A DNA stretch of 52,375 nt. Origin: an uncultured Desulfomonile sp. GTDB taxonomy: Bacteria; Desulfobacterota; Desulfomonilia; Desulfomonilales; Desulfomonilaceae. The DNA lies in assembly GCA_903952205.1 (NCBI GenBank), contig CAJBEZ010000068.1, forward strand, positions 1 to 52,375, written 5' to 3'. Within the stretch, counting starts at the first letter, position 1; the number at the start of each line of letters is the position of its first letter. This document shows positions 4,749 through 33,283 of the stretch, piece by piece. The position numbers and the translations under genes are program-made. The notes under the pieces are model-generated. The model was not told the DNA's origin, did no database searches, and saw only the letters and a program-made list of their open reading frames with translations.

Positions 4749-7496
4749 TTACCTAATGTAAAGTTCTATATTCTCAATCGCTTTAAATAATTCTTCAGTA
4801 TTGATGGGCTTGGAAATGTATCCGTCCATTCCGGCTTCAATGCATCGATCACTGTCACCTGCCATGGTGTACGCAGTCATTGCCAGGATCGGGACACGCT
4901 GTCCTCCACGAGACGCCTCTCTTGCACGAATGGCCGTAGTAGCCTCTAAACCATCCATTTCAGGCATTTGAACGTCCATTAGTATGAGATCAAACTGTTC
5001 CGCTTCGGACTTCTCAACAGCCTGTCTTCCGTTTTGAACCACAGTGACGCTATGCCCCATCTTTTGGAGCAAACTGATCGCCATTTTCTGATTAATGAGG
5101 TTGTCTTCAGCCAAAAGGATATTTCTGCGTCGTGCGCTCTCTCGAATTGAATGTCTAGTAAGCAGAGAAGGCCGGGTTTGTACGCCAGCCGTCTTTTGCA
5201 TGGAGGCGCAGATGGTCTCCAACAACTGCTGTTGATTAATAGGCTTGAGCAAGTATGCTGAGATGCCTAACTCCAGGCACCTAGCAGCATCACCACGCTG
5301 ACCTGCGGACGTGAGAATTAACATGATCGGATTAACCAAATCAGGATCGTCTTTGATCTTTTGAGCCAGTTCGAACCCGTCCATTCCGGGCATCATGTAA
5401 TCAATCAGAGCGATAGGAAAGGGACTGCCCGAGGTTTGAGCCAGCTTCATGACCTCCAGCGCGGTCTTGCCGTCAGCCGCTAATGTCGGCTTCATACCCC
5501 AGGATTTGAGTAATTCTTCGAGAATTCGTCTATTGGTTAAATTGTCGTCGACAACCAAAGCAACTAAGTCTTTGATAATTGATGTCTCTAAAGGAATCGA
5601 CCTGGGCGCTGGTTCAGTTGCTAGTGAGAAACAAACAGTGAAGTGAAACACGCTTCCTTTACCGACTTCGCTTTCTACCCAGATTCGTCCGTTCATCATC
5701 TCAACCAATCGGGCGGATACTGTCAAGCCTAACCCTGTGCCGCCATATTCCCTCGTGGTAGAGCCGTCGGCCTGTTCAAAAGCGTGAAAGATTTTTGCCT
5801 GCTTTTCAGGAGGTATTCCTATACCGGTGTCTGTCACGGAAAAATGAACACATACTCCGTTATCTGTTTCCAGTTCCAATTCAGCGTTGATAGCGATCTC
5901 ACCTTTAGCTGTGAACTTGATGGCGTTGCCGACTAAATTCACGAGCACCTGGCGAAGTCGTCCAGGATCGCCGACAACTGCGTCTGGAATACTCGTGGGA
6001 ATTCGGTACACTAACTCAAGTCCTTTATTGTCGGCCCCAATCGCCAATGAGGTCAAGGTGTTAGAAACACAATCCCTCAAGCTGAATGTGATCGTTTCCA
6101 GTTCCAGCTTCCCGGCTTCTATTTTGGAAAAGTCCAATATGTCATTGATCAATGCAAGGAGAGAATCAGCGGAGATCATAACCGAATGGAGGTAATCCCG
6201 CTGCTCATCGGACAGTCGGGTGTTTAACGCAAGTCCGGTCATGCCGATTATGCCGTTCATGGGAGTCCTAATCTCATGGCTCATATTAGCCAGAAATTCA
6301 CTCTTGGCGACACTGGCCAGTTCGGCGGACCTACGTGCCTCTATAAGATCTGTAATGTCCACGAAAGACTCCACACACCCGACAGCTATTTCGGTTTCAT
6401 TTCTCGTAATAGTCGCATTTTTCAAGACTACTCGTTGTTTACCGTCATTGGTTTTCAGTGTGCATTGCTGCCTGAATACGCTATCATCAGAACCCGGATT
6501 CAACACCGGGCATGCTACGGAACAGGACTCCTCGCAAAAAAAATCACAGCGTTTTCCTACTATGTCGCTTTCTTCAAAACCTGTTATTCTCGAGAACTCG
6601 GCATTCACTCCTGTTACGATCCGCCCGGAGTCGACGGTGAATATCCCTGTAGCGGCTGTGTCCAAGAATTGTCGCTGTAGTTTATAAGCGCTATTCAGTC
6701 GGTCTTCCCCCTCTTTTCGCTTTGAGAGCTGTTGTCTTATATTGCTTCGCCCGAATACCAAACCCAGAATTCCCAACAACCATATTCCACCATAGGCAAA
6801 AGCTTCGGAGCGGATCTGGGCATTCAGGTTTTTCTCTATAGGCCCCCATGGTGTAGAGATGCTTATTCCCCCTATAATGTCTCCCAATTTGTATCCCTGG
6901 CTGGTGTGGCATTTCAGGCAACCCTGCTCCACAAAATGCGGGCGCATGAGACGTAAATAAGTTTCATCTCCTATAGGCTCAATGGATGATACTTCCTGTA
7001 GTCCCTGGTCGAATGCGAGTAAAACCTTTTTTTCCCAATCGTCTGGAGCGTTTTCGGGTCTCAAAGGCTTGAGGCTGGTAGTATGACCTTTATGGCTATA
7101 TTGTTTCTCTCCCAACTCCTGGACCTGGCGGGTCATATAGGCCCCATTCATCAAGGTAAGTTGTTTCCCTGAAGGGGTTTTGATATCTCTTTCCGGAAGG
7201 TGCGCCAGGTAAGGGTTGGGTGGCGTTTGGGCCGTAACAGGAACGTAAACTCCGCCGTGGACGGCCGCCCAGCTACGGAAAGCCAGTTCCTTGCTGTAAC
7301 TGTGCAAGAGTCCTCCCCGGGCGATTGCCATGGCAGATGAATATGCTTCCCGATAATGCAATCCAGCAGTCGCAAGAATTACAATGGTCCAGAATACGGC
7401 AATCATAAGGAAGAACCTGTCGATGCGGGCCTGAACATCGCCCACGGCTCCGGCCGGCGGATTAATGGCGTCCATTTTTCCCGATTGTTTTTTCAT
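4749..7496 (-). CDS. Hybrid sensor histidine kinase with c-type heme motif domain and two receivers
   Basis: 915 residues from ATG 7496; GGAG lies seven bases upstream, while a GTG at 7511 has no such site. One membrane helix (about 27-47), then a periplasmic Tll0287/DUF3365-like domain holding one CLKCH heme c motif (Cys193, Cys196, His197), then a second helix (about 233-250). A PAS domain (about 270-385) holds a Cys cluster in [17 protein letters not shown]. Next come HisKA ([13 protein letters not shown]), HATPase_c (DTGIGIP, GTGLGL) and two receivers with Asp in [11 protein letters not shown] and [11 protein letters not shown]. No HPt domain is present, so a separate phosphotransfer protein is expected. 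Likely role: sensing redox or a small ligand such as NO or CO at heme. Confidence 0.9.
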
Positions 7497-21817: not shown

Positions 21818-22045
21818 ATGAGAAAACCTAAAGAAAAACAGATTTCTCTGCGTGGTGATCAACTTCTGCGCGGGGGCGATATAGTTCACGTCATGGACGA
21901 CGGGAACCCAACCAAGTGTAGGGTTTTGTCTTGTCTTGGGACCGAGAGCGGGTCATGCTTGGCAAGTCTGGAAATACTGGAAGGACCTAAAAAAGGAACA
22001 AGAATGGACACAACTCTGGTGGCGGGCGCCATAAAGCAGGAATAA
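21818..22045 (+). CDS. Small hypothetical protein after ybeY
   Basis: 75 residues, ATG 21818, eight bases downstream of the ybeY stop. The protein reads as a small beta barrel (GGDIVHVMDDGNPTKCRVLS) with a basic N-terminus. I do not recognise it. Close spacing suggests it is the last gene of the phoH-pgpH-ybeY unit. Confidence 0.6.
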   Translation: MRKPKEKQISLRGDQLLRGGDIVHVMDDGNPTKCRVLSCLGTESGSCLASLEILEGPKKGTRMDTTLVAGAIKQE

Positions 22046-22200: not shown

Positions 22201-22713
22201 TCAGGCGATACCCGCAATGCCGGCTTCTGAAAGATTTTTTGCCGCCATTGTGAGCATCTTGACATGTTCCATTTCAGCTCTAATGAGCTGATCTATCTCT
22301 ATCTTGCCCTCGGGATCCGGCAAAAGTTCTTTCATTCCCAAGAAGAAACTAACGGAATCTTTTTCAAACTGTATAGCCATATTTAAGGCTTCCTGAGATG
22401 TCGTAATTCTGGACAACCTTGAACTGGCAGCCTCTACAGTGAAAATGTGAGTGTCCGCCGTGGCCTGGAGGTAACTTTCGGCCAACCCTTCGGGGTCCCA
22501 AACTCCGGCAGACAAGGCTGATTGCGGAAGAGACCCTCTCAGTGTTTTGAACGACTCAATGTGATTAGCCTCCATTTCGGCCAAATCTTCAAACAGTTTC
22601 TTGGTTTCAGGGTCACTAGATTTTGCAGCGGCGCCCGCATAAAAGGCGTGCCCATTTTCCTCAATGCGGACCGCCATAGTGAAAACATCCTCCGCTGTTC
22701 CAAAAACAAACAT
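22201..22713 (-). CDS. Rubrerythrin/ferritin-like diiron protein
   Basis: 170 residues from ATG 22713 with GGAGG five bases upstream. A four-helix bundle carries the diiron pattern: Glu in RIEENGHAFY, EMEANHIESF, QFEKDSVSFF and RAEMEHVKM. This matches the rubrerythrin-like ferritin superfamily found in anaerobes, where it handles peroxide or stores iron. The C-terminal rubredoxin domain of classical rubrerythrin is absent. The gene stands alone. Confidence 0.85.
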   Translation of the reverse strand: MFVFGTAEDVFTMAVRIEENGHAFYAGAAAKSSDPETKKLFEDLAEMEANHIESFKTLRGSLPQSALSAGVWDPEGLAESYLQATADTHIFTVEAASSRLSRITTSQEALNMAIQFEKDSVSFFLGMKELLPDPEGKIEIDQLIRAEMEHVKMLTMAAKNLSEAGIAGIA

Positions 22714-22838: not shown

Positions 22839-23804
22839 CTAAATTGTCTTGTAAACATTCAGGCCTATTTTTTCAGATCTTCCGAAAACTAACTGATTTC
22901 CGCCAGTGGATCCAATGATAATTGTTTTTCCCGATTTAGAAGGCCCCAACTCTTTCGAAAGATCAACTTTGATGATCAGGCTTTCTCCACTCAATTCCAT
23001 TTCCATATTCTTGAAGGATGTCTTATTTCCGCATTTTTTCACAGCGCTGATATCTTTGTAAACGTTAAGGCCAACCTTCTCTGAACGACCTGGTAGCGTC
23101 TTGTTTCCTTCAGTTGACGCCACTATAACTGTCTTTCCCGATTTTGACGGCCCGAATTCTTTCGAAAGGTCTACTTTTATGATTAGGACTTCTTCCTGTG
23201 TCTCGAACTCCACATTTTTCATTTTTGGAGTCCCTTTAGCAGGGAGTTTCTTTTGAAGATCCTTTTTTTGTTCATCGCCGTCAGTAGCTTTCTTAACAAT
23301 TTGAATCGATTTGTTCAAGGGCCAATTCAGGAAGGCAAAATCATCATTTGCCAGAAGATCAGCGGCCTTTGGAGTTATCTTAAAAACTTCTTTCAGTTCC
23401 TGGTCCGACAAATTACCGGGAAATTTGGCAGATTCTTCAAGCAATTTACGAATCCTTGGGATTCCTGATTCATCCCTGACTCCATCTGTCTTGAACAGGC
23501 CGTTCAAAAAAAGTCTGGCCTGGCTGAAATCCTGGAATGCTCTCTTGAAAAGATTGATCATGTCCACAGCCTCGTTGGCCACAAAAGTTTCAATCTGTCC
23601 TGAAACCGGCTCAGTTACAAATATCTTCCATTTTTCCGGAGTAGGAGATTTTTTATCCCGGTAATATTCGCGGAAGTCTTCGGAACTCACCCAGAATTCA
23701 AAGCCATTTTCTGTTCTGACTTTAAAAGGCGACTTGTCATCACTCATCAGCTCCACCACCAATCCGGGGGTCGAACCTAGAAACTGTTGATATTTCTCTG
23801 ACAT
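22839..23804 (-). CDS. Hypothetical protein with two tandem GPSKSGKT domains
   Basis: 321 residues from ATG 23804, with AGGAG five bases upstream. Residues 1-190 are a mixed domain rich in charged residues with no recognised family. Residues about 197-253 and 265-320 are two copies of one beta-rich domain, more than half identical, each with LIIKVDLSKE, GPSKSGKT and GRSEKxGLNVYK. GPSKSGKT fits the Walker A consensus GxxxxGK[ST], but each repeat is far too small for a normal P-loop fold. I know similar short domains as stand-alone proteins of unknown function. The gene is monocistronic. Confidence 0.75.
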   Translation of the reverse strand: MSEKYQQFLGSTPGLVVELMSDDKSPFKVRTENGFEFWVSSEDFREYYRDKKSPTPEKWKIFVTEPVSGQIETFVANEAVDMINLFKRAFQDFSQARLFLNGLFKTDGVRDESGIPRIRKLLEESAKFPGNLSDQELKEVFKITPKAADLLANDDFAFLNWPLNKSIQIVKKATDGDEQKKDLQKKLPAKGTPKMKNVEFETQEEVLIIKVDLSKEFGPSKSGKTVIVASTEGNKTLPGRSEKVGLNVYKDISAVKKCGNKTSFKNMEMELSGESLIIKVDLSKELGPSKSGKTIIIGSTGGNQLVFGRSEKIGLNVYKTI

Positions 23805-24075
23805 CAATTCTCCTGGCTAACGCTAGTGAGATTTTCACTTATACATCACAGTGGTGATAAGGTCCAGCGAGAACGAGTTTAGCTTGAACGGCATGCAAAA
23901 ATGTTGAAAATCAATCCGATCACCTGTGTTGAATGGATCTTGCCCGGTTCTACCCCCTCTATGATCGGCGATTCTTGTTGACAATCCTGATAGAGCTATT
24001 TACCAATAACAAGATTTGTAATTCTTAAACTGGTCAATAAAATCTTCTAAAATCCGCAATAAGGAGCGTTAAGAG

Positions 24076-31083: not shown

Positions 31084-31529
31084 AAATAATGCGCTAACGA
31101 TAATGTGTTGAATCTAAGATTAAAAGCTCCATCTGACCTTCCCAATTCGATGACAAAGCGATTTTCAGCCTGTTGTCTAATAGTTTCTCAATAATGGATA
31201 ATTCGATCTTTGGATTAGATCAGTATTCGTTTCGAAACAAGCTTGTCCGATTTCGAGGAATTGACTTTAGTGGCGGCCGGGAACAAATTCCACGAATCGT
31301 TTCTGTGCTATCTATAAACTTCTCTTCTGTGGCGCACACCGGATATGATTATTTGATGAGCCTTAGAGTCAATTCGATTGACGATTCTGTAATCACTGTA
31401 GCGAACCTCCTTACAGGGCAATTTTAATGATCTTCCTGTTATCCGTCAAATTCTTTGAGTTTCAATGTTGGTCTTGAACGTTGACATAAACCAGAATCAG
31501 AGCCAAACTTCTGAGTAGAGGTGTATCAA
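31084..31529. other. Gene-free stretch at the left edge of the accessory region
   Basis: About 445 bases. Most of it is repeat copy A1. An 84-codon plus-strand frame (31173-31427) lies over the repeat, has no ribosome-binding site and is best read as an antisense frame of the decayed repeat. Confidence 0.5.
31139..31340 (-). repeat. Dispersed repeat family A, copy 1
   Basis: Shares with copy 2 (32854-33090) the segments CCCAATTCGATGACAAAGCG-like and GGAATTGACTTTAGTGGCGG-like, and with copy 4 the piece GATTTTCAGCCTGTTGT. Read on the minus strand it gives remnants (FPAATKVNS, QQAENRFVIELGR) of the same protein segment as the other copies, interrupted by stops. It lacks the 'GYDPxNWQ' half. Confidence 0.6.
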
Positions 31530-31742
31530 ATGCCCGTATCTGCTCGTAAAGCATCGAGGGTTCCAAAAGAAGAGTTGATTAAACATCAGTTTGACGATTC
31601 CGAACTCCAGGCAGAGTTTGATGCGCTAAGCTCTAACGAGGACAGGTCAGATTATATTGAAGCGTTAAAGAGTTTCCGCCAGCTGGCCTCTCGAAGAACT
31701 TTTTCTCACGAAGAGGTTAAAGCACTTTTAGGTTTGGATTGA
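31530..31742 (+). CDS. Antitoxin-like small protein, no partner
   Basis: 70 residues from ATG 31530, six bases after GAGGTG. The sequence (MPVSARKASRVPKEELIKHQ, then an acidic helical half ending FSHEEVKALLGLD) has the basic-then-acidic layout of type II antitoxins that bind RelE- or VapC-type toxins. No toxin follows; the stop codon abuts methyltransferase debris (family B). Function is inferred from size and composition only. Confidence 0.5.
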   Translation: MPVSARKASRVPKEELIKHQFDDSELQAEFDALSSNEDRSDYIEALKSFRQLASRRTFSHEEVKALLGLD

Positions 31743-32006
31743 ACCTGATAGAAATAGAATGCCATCCGGCGCAACGAGGTCCCTAATCTGGGAAGCAAAC
31801 TCGAAAAGCTACTGTCTGGCCTGTCTGTATGCTTCCATTCGAACTATTAAGTAATCCTTAATAGTTGAGCCACGCTCACCTTCTTGGTATATGTTTTTCA
31901 GATGAATGTTTTCTCCAAGCAAATGCCTTTCCTCTGGAATCGTCAAATATTTCTTAACGGTTGTATCCTGCAGCGGCGTAACCAGCCAAATTGAAAAACA
32001 CGATGA
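31739..32006 (-). pseudogene. RhuM N-terminal fragment fused to methyltransferase fragment (family B, copy 1)
   Basis: Read on the minus strand the frame gives IWLVTPLQDTTVKKYLTI, ENIHLKNIYQEGE and STIKDYLIVRMEA, which resembles the N-terminal HTH part of RhuM (compare HLKNVYEQREVTPEATIRKF in the intact gene at 41845). After an in-frame TAG it continues as LFEFASQIRDLVAPDGILFL, the core of a class I methyltransferase (compare 38851-39411). The same chimeric junction recurs at 42000-42150, so an already fused remnant was duplicated. The palindrome AACTATTAAG-TAATC-CTTAATAGTT (31842-31866) lies at the RhuM end. Confidence 0.55.
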
Positions 32007-32197
32007 CTATGACTCATTGACCGTAAAGTTGGTCCGCAGTCTTTTTAACAGGTCACATTAATATTCTACGCGAACCTAACTGTGGTCCATCGAGATCAGG
32101 TCATGAATGAGCTGGTGTCATTTTCTTGAGGACCTTCACTGTATCTCCCGAACATTTTAGCTTGAGTCATTCAGATTTCTTTCATAAACTCTCCATT

Positions 32198-32482
32198 ATG
32201 ATAAAGAGTTTTAGGACGAGGGATCTCGAAATATTTTTTCATAATGGCGATGTCCCCAACTACAGAAATATTGCTAACCCATTAACCAGGAAACTGCGCT
32301 TACTTAATACATCGGAAAATTTGAACGATTTGAGGGTTCCGCCAAGGAACAATTTAGAAAAACTACAGTCAGACAGGGAGGGTCAATATTCCATTAGGGT
32401 GAATGACAGGCTGAGATAGTGTTTTGTTTTTAAGAATGGTAACGTATACGAATTGGAGCTTGTGGATTACCACAAAGGATAA
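32198..32482 (+). pseudogene. higB: HigB-type toxin with an in-frame amber codon
   Basis: From ATG 32198 the frame reads as a HigB/RelE-fold mRNA interferase (IKSFRTRDLEIFFHNG, RKLRLLNTSENLNDLRVPP) until TAG at 32417-32419. The same frame continues CFVFKNGNVYELELVDYHKG to TAA 32480, exactly the usual HigB C-terminus, giving a normal length of about 94 codons. A single change from TTG (Leu) would create this TAG. Truncation removes the last beta strands needed for catalysis, so the toxin is probably dead. The antitoxin gene six bases downstream is intact. Confidence 0.8.
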
Positions 32483-32488
32483 GAGATA

Positions 32489-32776
32489 ATGGGCACAAAA
32501 CCATTGATAACACCTGGTGAGATTCTCCTTGAGGAGTTTATGATTCCGTTGAATTTAGGTAAAGAGGATTTATCTGCCCAGCTAAACATGTCTCTTATGG
32601 AAATATCTGACATTCTGGAATGTAAGAGAGCTATTGATGTAGGCCTTGCTAAAAAGCTCTCTAAAAGGTTTGGCAATTCTCAAAAGTTCTGGCTGAATCT
32701 TCAAAGTGATTATGAATCCGACAAGAAAGAGATTTCGGAGAACCAATCAACTGATCTCAAATCCTGCTATGCATAA
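32489..32776 (+). CDS. higA: HigA-type antitoxin (XRE family)
   Basis: 95 residues, ATG 32489, six bases after the higB frame ends. Begins with the HigA signature ITPGEILLEEFMIPLNL and has the helix-turn-helix with KRAIDVGLAKKLSKRFGNS and the FWLNLQSDYE segment. It should neutralise HigB and repress the operon promoter. With the toxin interrupted it may survive as a regulator or as an antitoxin against related toxins. GGATAAGAG upstream is the ribosome-binding site. Confidence 0.88.
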   Translation: MGTKPLITPGEILLEEFMIPLNLGKEDLSAQLNMSLMEISDILECKRAIDVGLAKKLSKRFGNSQKFWLNLQSDYESDKKEISENQSTDLKSCYA

Positions 32777-33283
32777 GCCGCTGCCCGGCAGTTGACAACA
32801 TCTTATTCGCTCGTTTTCTATTCATTCTTTCCCTGATGTCAGCTTCCACTCAGTATGGTTCCCACCGAATCAGCCCCCTTTGCAACGCCAATGTCGCCAC
32901 GTTGCGGATCAGGCCTGCGAACGCCGGCCCCTGCCAGTTCGCGGGGTCATAACCCGATGAGCCTACCAGCGACCGCCCCAATTCCATGACAAAACGATTT
33001 TTAGATGGAAACAAGTTTGTCGGATTTGGATGAATTGACTTTAGTGGCCGCCGGAAAAACATTCCACATGTCGTTACTGCGCCACACACTAAAAGGGATT
33101 GCGTGACCAACTGCAAAACCTTTTTCCAGGGAAACATGGGCGAACAATTCGGTACATTTGGTGTCTAAAACAGCAAAAGATTTGACAACGCTGTCTTGTC
33201 GAGTATACTGTCTTTGTCCTTTACCAAAGGTTTGGGACCCTCAAAGGTTTGAGCCGCTGAACCAAATCAGCGGTTAACCATTT
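32777..33283. other. Gene-free stretch holding repeat A2
   Basis: About 500 bases without an intact gene. Most is repeat copy A2. The rest (33100-33283) shows nothing I can name. Confidence 0.5.
32854..33090 (-). repeat. Dispersed repeat family A, copy 2
   Basis: Best-preserved copy. On the minus strand it encodes FVMELGRSLVGSSGYDP, then NWQGPAFAGLIRNVATLALQ and RGLIRWEPY followed by a stop. Copies 3 and 4 give the same string with mostly conservative changes, so the repeat derives from the 3' end of a once-translated gene. The upstream half shares FPAATKVNS-type codons with copy 1. The parent protein is not one I recognise. Confidence 0.65.

Follow-up and report, generated by a model that had tools for sequence, protein, structure and literature searches.

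Does a Walker A-like string within a domain of 58 residues mark a nucleotide-binding site, or does it belong to something else? The question is raised by one gene in a stretch of 52,375 nucleotides of DNA from an uncultured Desulfomonile sp. (contig CAJBEZ010000068.1; this whole stretch is referred to as the window). Its product carries, behind an N-terminal part, two copies of a small domain, here called the SxSGK domain, each containing GPSKSGKT. The coordinates are collected in Table 1; a TTG one codon upstream of the ATG is an alternative start and would give 22839-23807. The initial annotation had described tandem domains of about 57 residues in which GPSKSGKT, LIIKVDLSKE and GLNVYK are kept exactly while other positions have drifted. 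It had judged the domain too small for a P-loop NTPase, and had proposed a novel nucleotide- or phosphate-binding module or a coincidental likeness. The stand-alone copies of the domain, the N-terminal part and the basic linker are additions to that description.

Table 1. Features of the tandem gene and of its downstream neighbor, in window positions
Feature	Position	Strand	Basis
Gene for 321-aa protein: N-terminal part and two SxSGK domains (predicted beta)	22839..23804	-	ORF, ATG at 23804
N-terminal part, residues 1-165 (~165 residues)	23310..23804	-	Weak model
Linker, residues 166-194, basic (pI 9.8)	23223..23309	-	pLDDT <50 at 157-194; charge
Repeat 1 of SxSGK domain, residues 195-252	23049..23222	-	Sequence comparison
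GPSKSGKT motif, repeat 1	23130..23153	-	Exact motif
Short inter-repeat linker, residues 253-263	23016..23048	-	Repeat limits; alignment
Repeat 2 of SxSGK domain, residues 264-321	22842..23015	-	Sequence comparison; structure model
GPSKSGKT motif, repeat 2	22923..22946	-	Exact motif
Rubrerythrin-like gene, directly downstream of tandem gene	22201..22713	-	Pfam Rubrerythrin, E 4.3e-9 (window copy)

Comparison of the two repeats bore out this picture. They are identical at 40/58 residues, whereas no shuffle out of 100,000 exceeded 16, and differ at the other 18; all three strings named above are unchanged between them. Of the 40 shared residues, 17 are also encoded by the same codon, a pattern in keeping with an old duplication maintained by selection at the protein level, and at the DNA level the repeats were 78% alike over 90 nt. 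Their charge differs, with a pI of 6.2 for repeat 1, which is not basic, and of 9.2 for repeat 2. Among 11 tandem orthologues, the mean likeness was 71% between repeat 1 copies and 74% between repeat 2 copies, but 63% between repeats 1 and 2 within a protein. These values, whose ranges overlap and which come from an alignment without a tree, suggest that the duplication is older than the orthologues. Promoter- and terminator-like counts were close to the shuffle mean, tRNA and Rfam scans of the window gave no match, and a 2.2-kb stretch (31084-33283) contained no ORF of at least 100 aa on either strand.

In P-loop NTPases, which have an alpha/beta/alpha core, the Walker A loop connects a beta strand to an alpha helix. 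The AlphaFold2 model of repeat 2, built from 68 sequences, had a pLDDT of 95.1 and was all beta, with strands at residues 4-9, 12-17, 31-36 and 53-57 and no helix. The motif, residues 24-31, lies in a long loop of the model that runs into the third long strand (31-36), whereas a Walker A loop is followed by a helix. A model of the full-length protein was weak (mean pLDDT 66.9); it had the same four strands in both repeats, some of them longer, and its fold matches in the PDB were low. Structure prediction of one repeat, which the initial annotation had proposed as a check, thus spoke against Walker A, and its argument from size is upheld by the 58 residues and the all-beta model. Sequence searches of the PDB, for which the whole protein, its N-terminal part, repeat 2 and two profiles served as queries, returned only motif-length RecA matches and weak ones. 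RecA, the top motif match, has the string G-P-x-x-S-G-K-T in common with the domain, but the RecA chains aligned over the 11-residue motif only, with domain E-values above 600.

The motif was then read against its homologues. Both window repeats matched the full-domain family profile (E 5.3e-28 and 2.3e-25; the profile itself contains both) and carry the family signature, S-x-[ST]-G-[KR], T-x-G-N (T-G-G-N in repeat 2) and G-x-N-x-Y. Among 94 distinct copies found by BLAST or profile searches of genomes, which were fetched best matches first so that weaker matches are under-represented, and which include 16 tandem copies and 7 from genomes first reached through the motif pattern, S26 was present in 94, S28 in 93, G29 in 93, K30 in 94 and T31 in 79. 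Further downstream, G39 was conserved in 94, N40 in 93, G52 in 93, N54 in 93 and Y56 in 91. The copies without Thr at residue 31 have Asn (12 copies, ten of which came from the search of Planctomycetota) or Ser (3 copies). Leaving out the 7 pattern-reached copies gave 87/87 for S26, 86/87 for S28, 86/87 for G29, 87/87 for K30 and 73/87 for T31. In a larger set of 247 distinct copies, S-x-[ST]-G-[KR] was present in 246, GxxxxGK[ST] was present in 193 and absent from 54; this set includes the genome-contig loci (80) and viral loci (80 + 32) found by motif-containing patterns, which inflates conservation.

Two subfamilies were distinguished. Subfamily A resembles the window (MKNVEM...FGPSxSGKT), and subfamily B has PxPSxSGKT, with the first Walker glycine absent in the copies seen. 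Variation also occurs among the tandem orthologues themselves: the one from genome G012 (L293), whose copies stand outside both the 94- and the 247-copy counts, has SGRN in repeat 1 and SGKN in repeat 2 in place of SGKT, and the one at locus L050 has SGRT in repeat 2. The survey of GKT among homologues, a further check proposed at the outset, therefore had a mixed outcome, as K30 was kept in 94/94 copies, but T31 in only 79/94, and Arg replaces the lysine in these two orthologues. Coincidence is a fitting description of the match to GxxxxGK[ST] and not of SxSGK, which is strongly conserved. Overall, the helix-free model, the variation of the motif and the small size of the domain lead us to reject a P-loop NTPase, and we expect no NTP hydrolysis from the SxSGK domain.

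We next considered whether the domain belongs to a catalogued family. The window protein had no meaningful match in Pfam, NCBIfam or PHROGs, the listed matches being at E 0.096 or worse. When 68 family members were scanned at E 0.01, there were two weak matches in Pfam (one to Img2 and one to Sgo0707_N2), one in NCBIfam (YbcJ) and none in PHROGs. Img2, a mitochondrial ribosomal protein, was matched by 1/68 members (E 0.0014) and in another scan by 2/14 (best E 0.032); these scattered weak matches were taken as chance. YbcJ (ribosome-associated, PRK11507) was matched by 1/68 members at E 0.0065 over the G-x-S-x-SG stretch. The same stretch was covered in a PDB profile search by 1p9k (E 0.29), which we take to be YbcJ. 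Apart from Img2, which came from two Pfam scans, YbcJ was the sole name to arise twice, here by different routes. YbcJ has an alpha/beta S4-like fold, in contrast to the all-beta model of the SxSGK domain, and its match falls below significance for 68 members; it was also taken as chance. Motif and sequence strings of the domain were not found in the literature searched. The SxSGK family is thus absent from Pfam, NCBIfam and PHROGs and uncatalogued in the libraries searched; we make no claim of categorical novelty, since fold searches are poorly suited to placing a domain of 58 residues.

The fold searches illustrate this difficulty. Against the PDB, the best Foldseek match of the single domain had an E-value of 4.0, and none of 105 chains reached a VIA-align Z of at least 2; sensitivity at this size is low, as the one clear relative found in BFVD scored only E 1.3e-3. 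That relative, A0A6J7XE12, is an uncharacterised protein of 69 aa from an uncultured Caudovirales phage. Its predicted fold is the same (TM 0.88 on the query, rmsd 1.2) at 30% identity, and its length is that of a stand-alone member, with one domain and without the N-terminal part of the window protein. The fold of the SxSGK domain, predicted to be of the all-beta class, may be new. For the N-terminal part, the weak full-length model had short beta segments within residues 4-39 and helices mainly within 73-152. Residues 1-47, a stretch with a pLDDT of about 42-57, aligned over about 45 residues with the N-terminal parts of myosins (VIA-align Z up to 4.3) and, at lower scores, with SH3 and Tudor-type entries; they are perhaps SH3-like.

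Most homologues of the 58-residue unit are encoded by small separate genes, about 60 codons long. In the window's own phylum, where repeat 2 by itself was the query that recovered the stand-alone members, the domain was present in 37/297 genomes, two of which have the tandem (the window's own and G009). It was also found in 60/198 genomes of Nitrospirota (the phylum of a Nitrospira genome), in 33/246 of Planctomycetota and in 5/251 of Chloroflexota (the phylum of a Chloroflexi genome). On genome contigs, 424 places were confirmed, 80 of which were retained as loci. Contigs classed as viral, some of which may be bacterial DNA, contributed 80 loci, plus 32 for the second subfamily, giving 112. 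Two of these viral contigs (L178 and L180, whose DNAs are 97-98% identical) carry another tandem, outside the window's family, in an ORF at 5896 on the plus strand. No real match to the domain was found among 50,697 annotated phage records. Against annotated phages and plasmids, repeat 2 was unmatched at E 0.01 and a subfamily-B member at E 0.001, and members from loci L019 and L171 gave chance-level matches only, at E-values up to 10. Viral carriage therefore rests on metagenomic contigs classed as viral.

The tandem gene was matched in 12/13 sampled genomes of the Desulfomonile-like family, the one without a match being 81% complete, and in G012 the match was split into two pieces on two contigs, each reaching a contig end. 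Where relatives carry a name, it is Desulfomonile, Desulfomonilaceae, Syntrophaceae or Deltaproteobacteria. The N-terminal part had no Pfam match and was present in 1/247 genomes of the phylum, namely the window's own; it is probably specific to the Desulfomonile family, where it would have been joined to two copies of the domain. By BLAST, a relative of the rubrerythrin-like gene was the next same-strand gene downstream in 11/12 tandem loci, including the window; at the twelfth, L050, the available DNA stops about 0.6 kb past the gene. On the other side of that neighbor, the plus-strand positions 21818-22045 encode a protein of 75 aa with no Pfam match, which lies beside the tandem gene in the window and in 6/11 fetched tandem loci.

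To describe the surroundings of the viral and cellular copies, gene sets were compiled around the loci, with the domain gene kept in 158/160. In the first viral set, 144 of the 185 listed neighbors were scanned, one representative per BLAST cluster. Among the 25 of 195 PHROGs families listed, 18 were named and 14 of these act on DNA by manual count: helicase, primase, clamp, clamp loader, methylase, ParB-like, repair and RNase H proteins. The other named families were terminases, an ATPase and a transposase, and the 25 of 69 Pfam families listed also included an integrase, HTH proteins and several DUFs. In the second viral set (123 neighbors), the 25 of 50 PHROGs families listed included DNA polymerases, exonucleases, SSB, a Gp2.5-like protein, RusA and a clamp, along with terminases, HNH endonucleases and acetyltransferases. 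The neighbors themselves vary: BLAST clustering of 414 of them gave 282 clusters, and that of another 274 gave 221. Around the cellular copies, recurring neighbors were confined to related loci, differed between lineages and did not point to replication, and no one partner was common to cellular and viral copies. In the subfamily-B viral loci, a protein of about 350 aa without a Pfam match (for example, L278:2766-3806) was encoded upstream of the small gene in 8/32 and adjoined it in 7 of those 8.

The sliding clamp was followed up with two iterated profiles, each seeded by one neighboring clamp confirmed by Pfam; because the iteration drew on these very loci, the E-values obtained are not independent. 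A clamp-like gene was found in the fetched flank of 13/112 viral loci, all on the same strand as the domain gene, 12 downstream and 1 upstream. As L182 and L184 do not differ in their DNA, there are at most 12 distinct clamp loci, and the weakest match was at L169. Searching from the clamp side, the domain lay within 3 kb in 7/51 loci; 5 of these had already been collected, and the remaining two have the same DNA as each other. The association of clamp and domain is small, and its figures stand without a matched control gene; phage genomes cluster small genes near replication genes anyway.

From the viral gene context and the conservation of the motif, we infer that the SxSGK domain could be a small beta module that binds nucleic acid or a replisome component on DNA, a tentative reading to which we give a probability of roughly one in three. 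The GPSxSGKT stretch is, by the model, a conserved loop before the third long strand and not a Walker A motif. The S-x-S-G-K loop, T-x-G-N and G-x-N-x-Y would make up one polar contact surface. Weighing against this reading are the diversity of the neighbors, the cellular gene contexts, the rubrerythrin-like partner in the window, the duplicates among the clamp loci, the absence of a match in annotated phage records and the non-basic repeat 1. In the Desulfomonile family, the fusion of two such modules to a family-specific N-terminal part would provide two contact sites. The loop may contact phosphate or nucleic acid. Distinctly less probable is the broader proposal of a new family of separately encoded beta proteins of about 58 residues, common to bacteria and phages. 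Its members would act on DNA or on the sliding clamp at the replication machinery, and their S-x-S-G-K loop would contact phosphate and have an origin independent of the P-loop fold; the window would then represent a lineage that fused two copies into one protein. Known small beta nucleic-acid binders, such as SSB/OB, cold-shock and Sso7d-like proteins, are alike in size and beta content, and the viral copies lie in a replication-region context; nevertheless, none was returned as a sequence or fold match, in a comparison that is insensitive for short domains.

Other readings fit parts of the same evidence. The domain might instead be a protein-protein module, with a sliding-clamp partner on viral contigs and a rubrerythrin-like partner in the relatives of Desulfomonile, its loop being structural or part of the interface. 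The clamp-like genes near the domain in 13/112 viral loci and the rubrerythrin-like gene in 11/12 tandem loci are what such partners would predict, and repeats often mean avidity, but the lack of a partner common to cellular and viral copies makes this reading doubtful.

A convergent phosphate or nucleotide loop on a non-P-loop beta fold, one that cradles a phosphate without hydrolyzing its carrier, be it a nucleotide, a cofactor or a signalling molecule, would be in keeping with the near invariance of S26, G29 and K30 across the two subfamilies and, by reasoning, with a likeness to a glycine-rich anion-binding turn. It is rather unlikely, given that T31 can be Asn, K30 can be Arg and the first Gly can be absent. 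Similarly improbable is that the conserved polar residues are mainly structural, holding tight turns in a very small fold, and that the protein has an unrelated housekeeping or stress role. Short domains often conserve Gly, Ser and Asn in turns, and the neighbors in cells are varied; yet near-invariant Ser, Lys and Asn at several positions exceed what glycine turns need, and the occurrence on viral contigs suggests a portable activity. That the domain is a genuine fragment of a P-loop NTPase with an active Walker A site is extremely improbable, since its match to GxxxxGK[ST] in both window copies is outweighed by 58 all-beta residues, a loop without a following helix, the 54/247 copies that fail the motif, GRN and GKN in a tandem orthologue and RecA matches of motif length only.

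A protein of about 60 residues with a near-invariant motif, confirmed at 424 places on genome contigs and present on 112 contigs classed as viral, is missing from all three of the family libraries searched. It also presents a clear case in which annotation by the GxxxxGK[ST] pattern would wrongly call an ATP-binding site. Its small size and confidently predicted fold would make it easy to express and assay, and the copies that adjoin clamp-like genes offer a first functional hypothesis.
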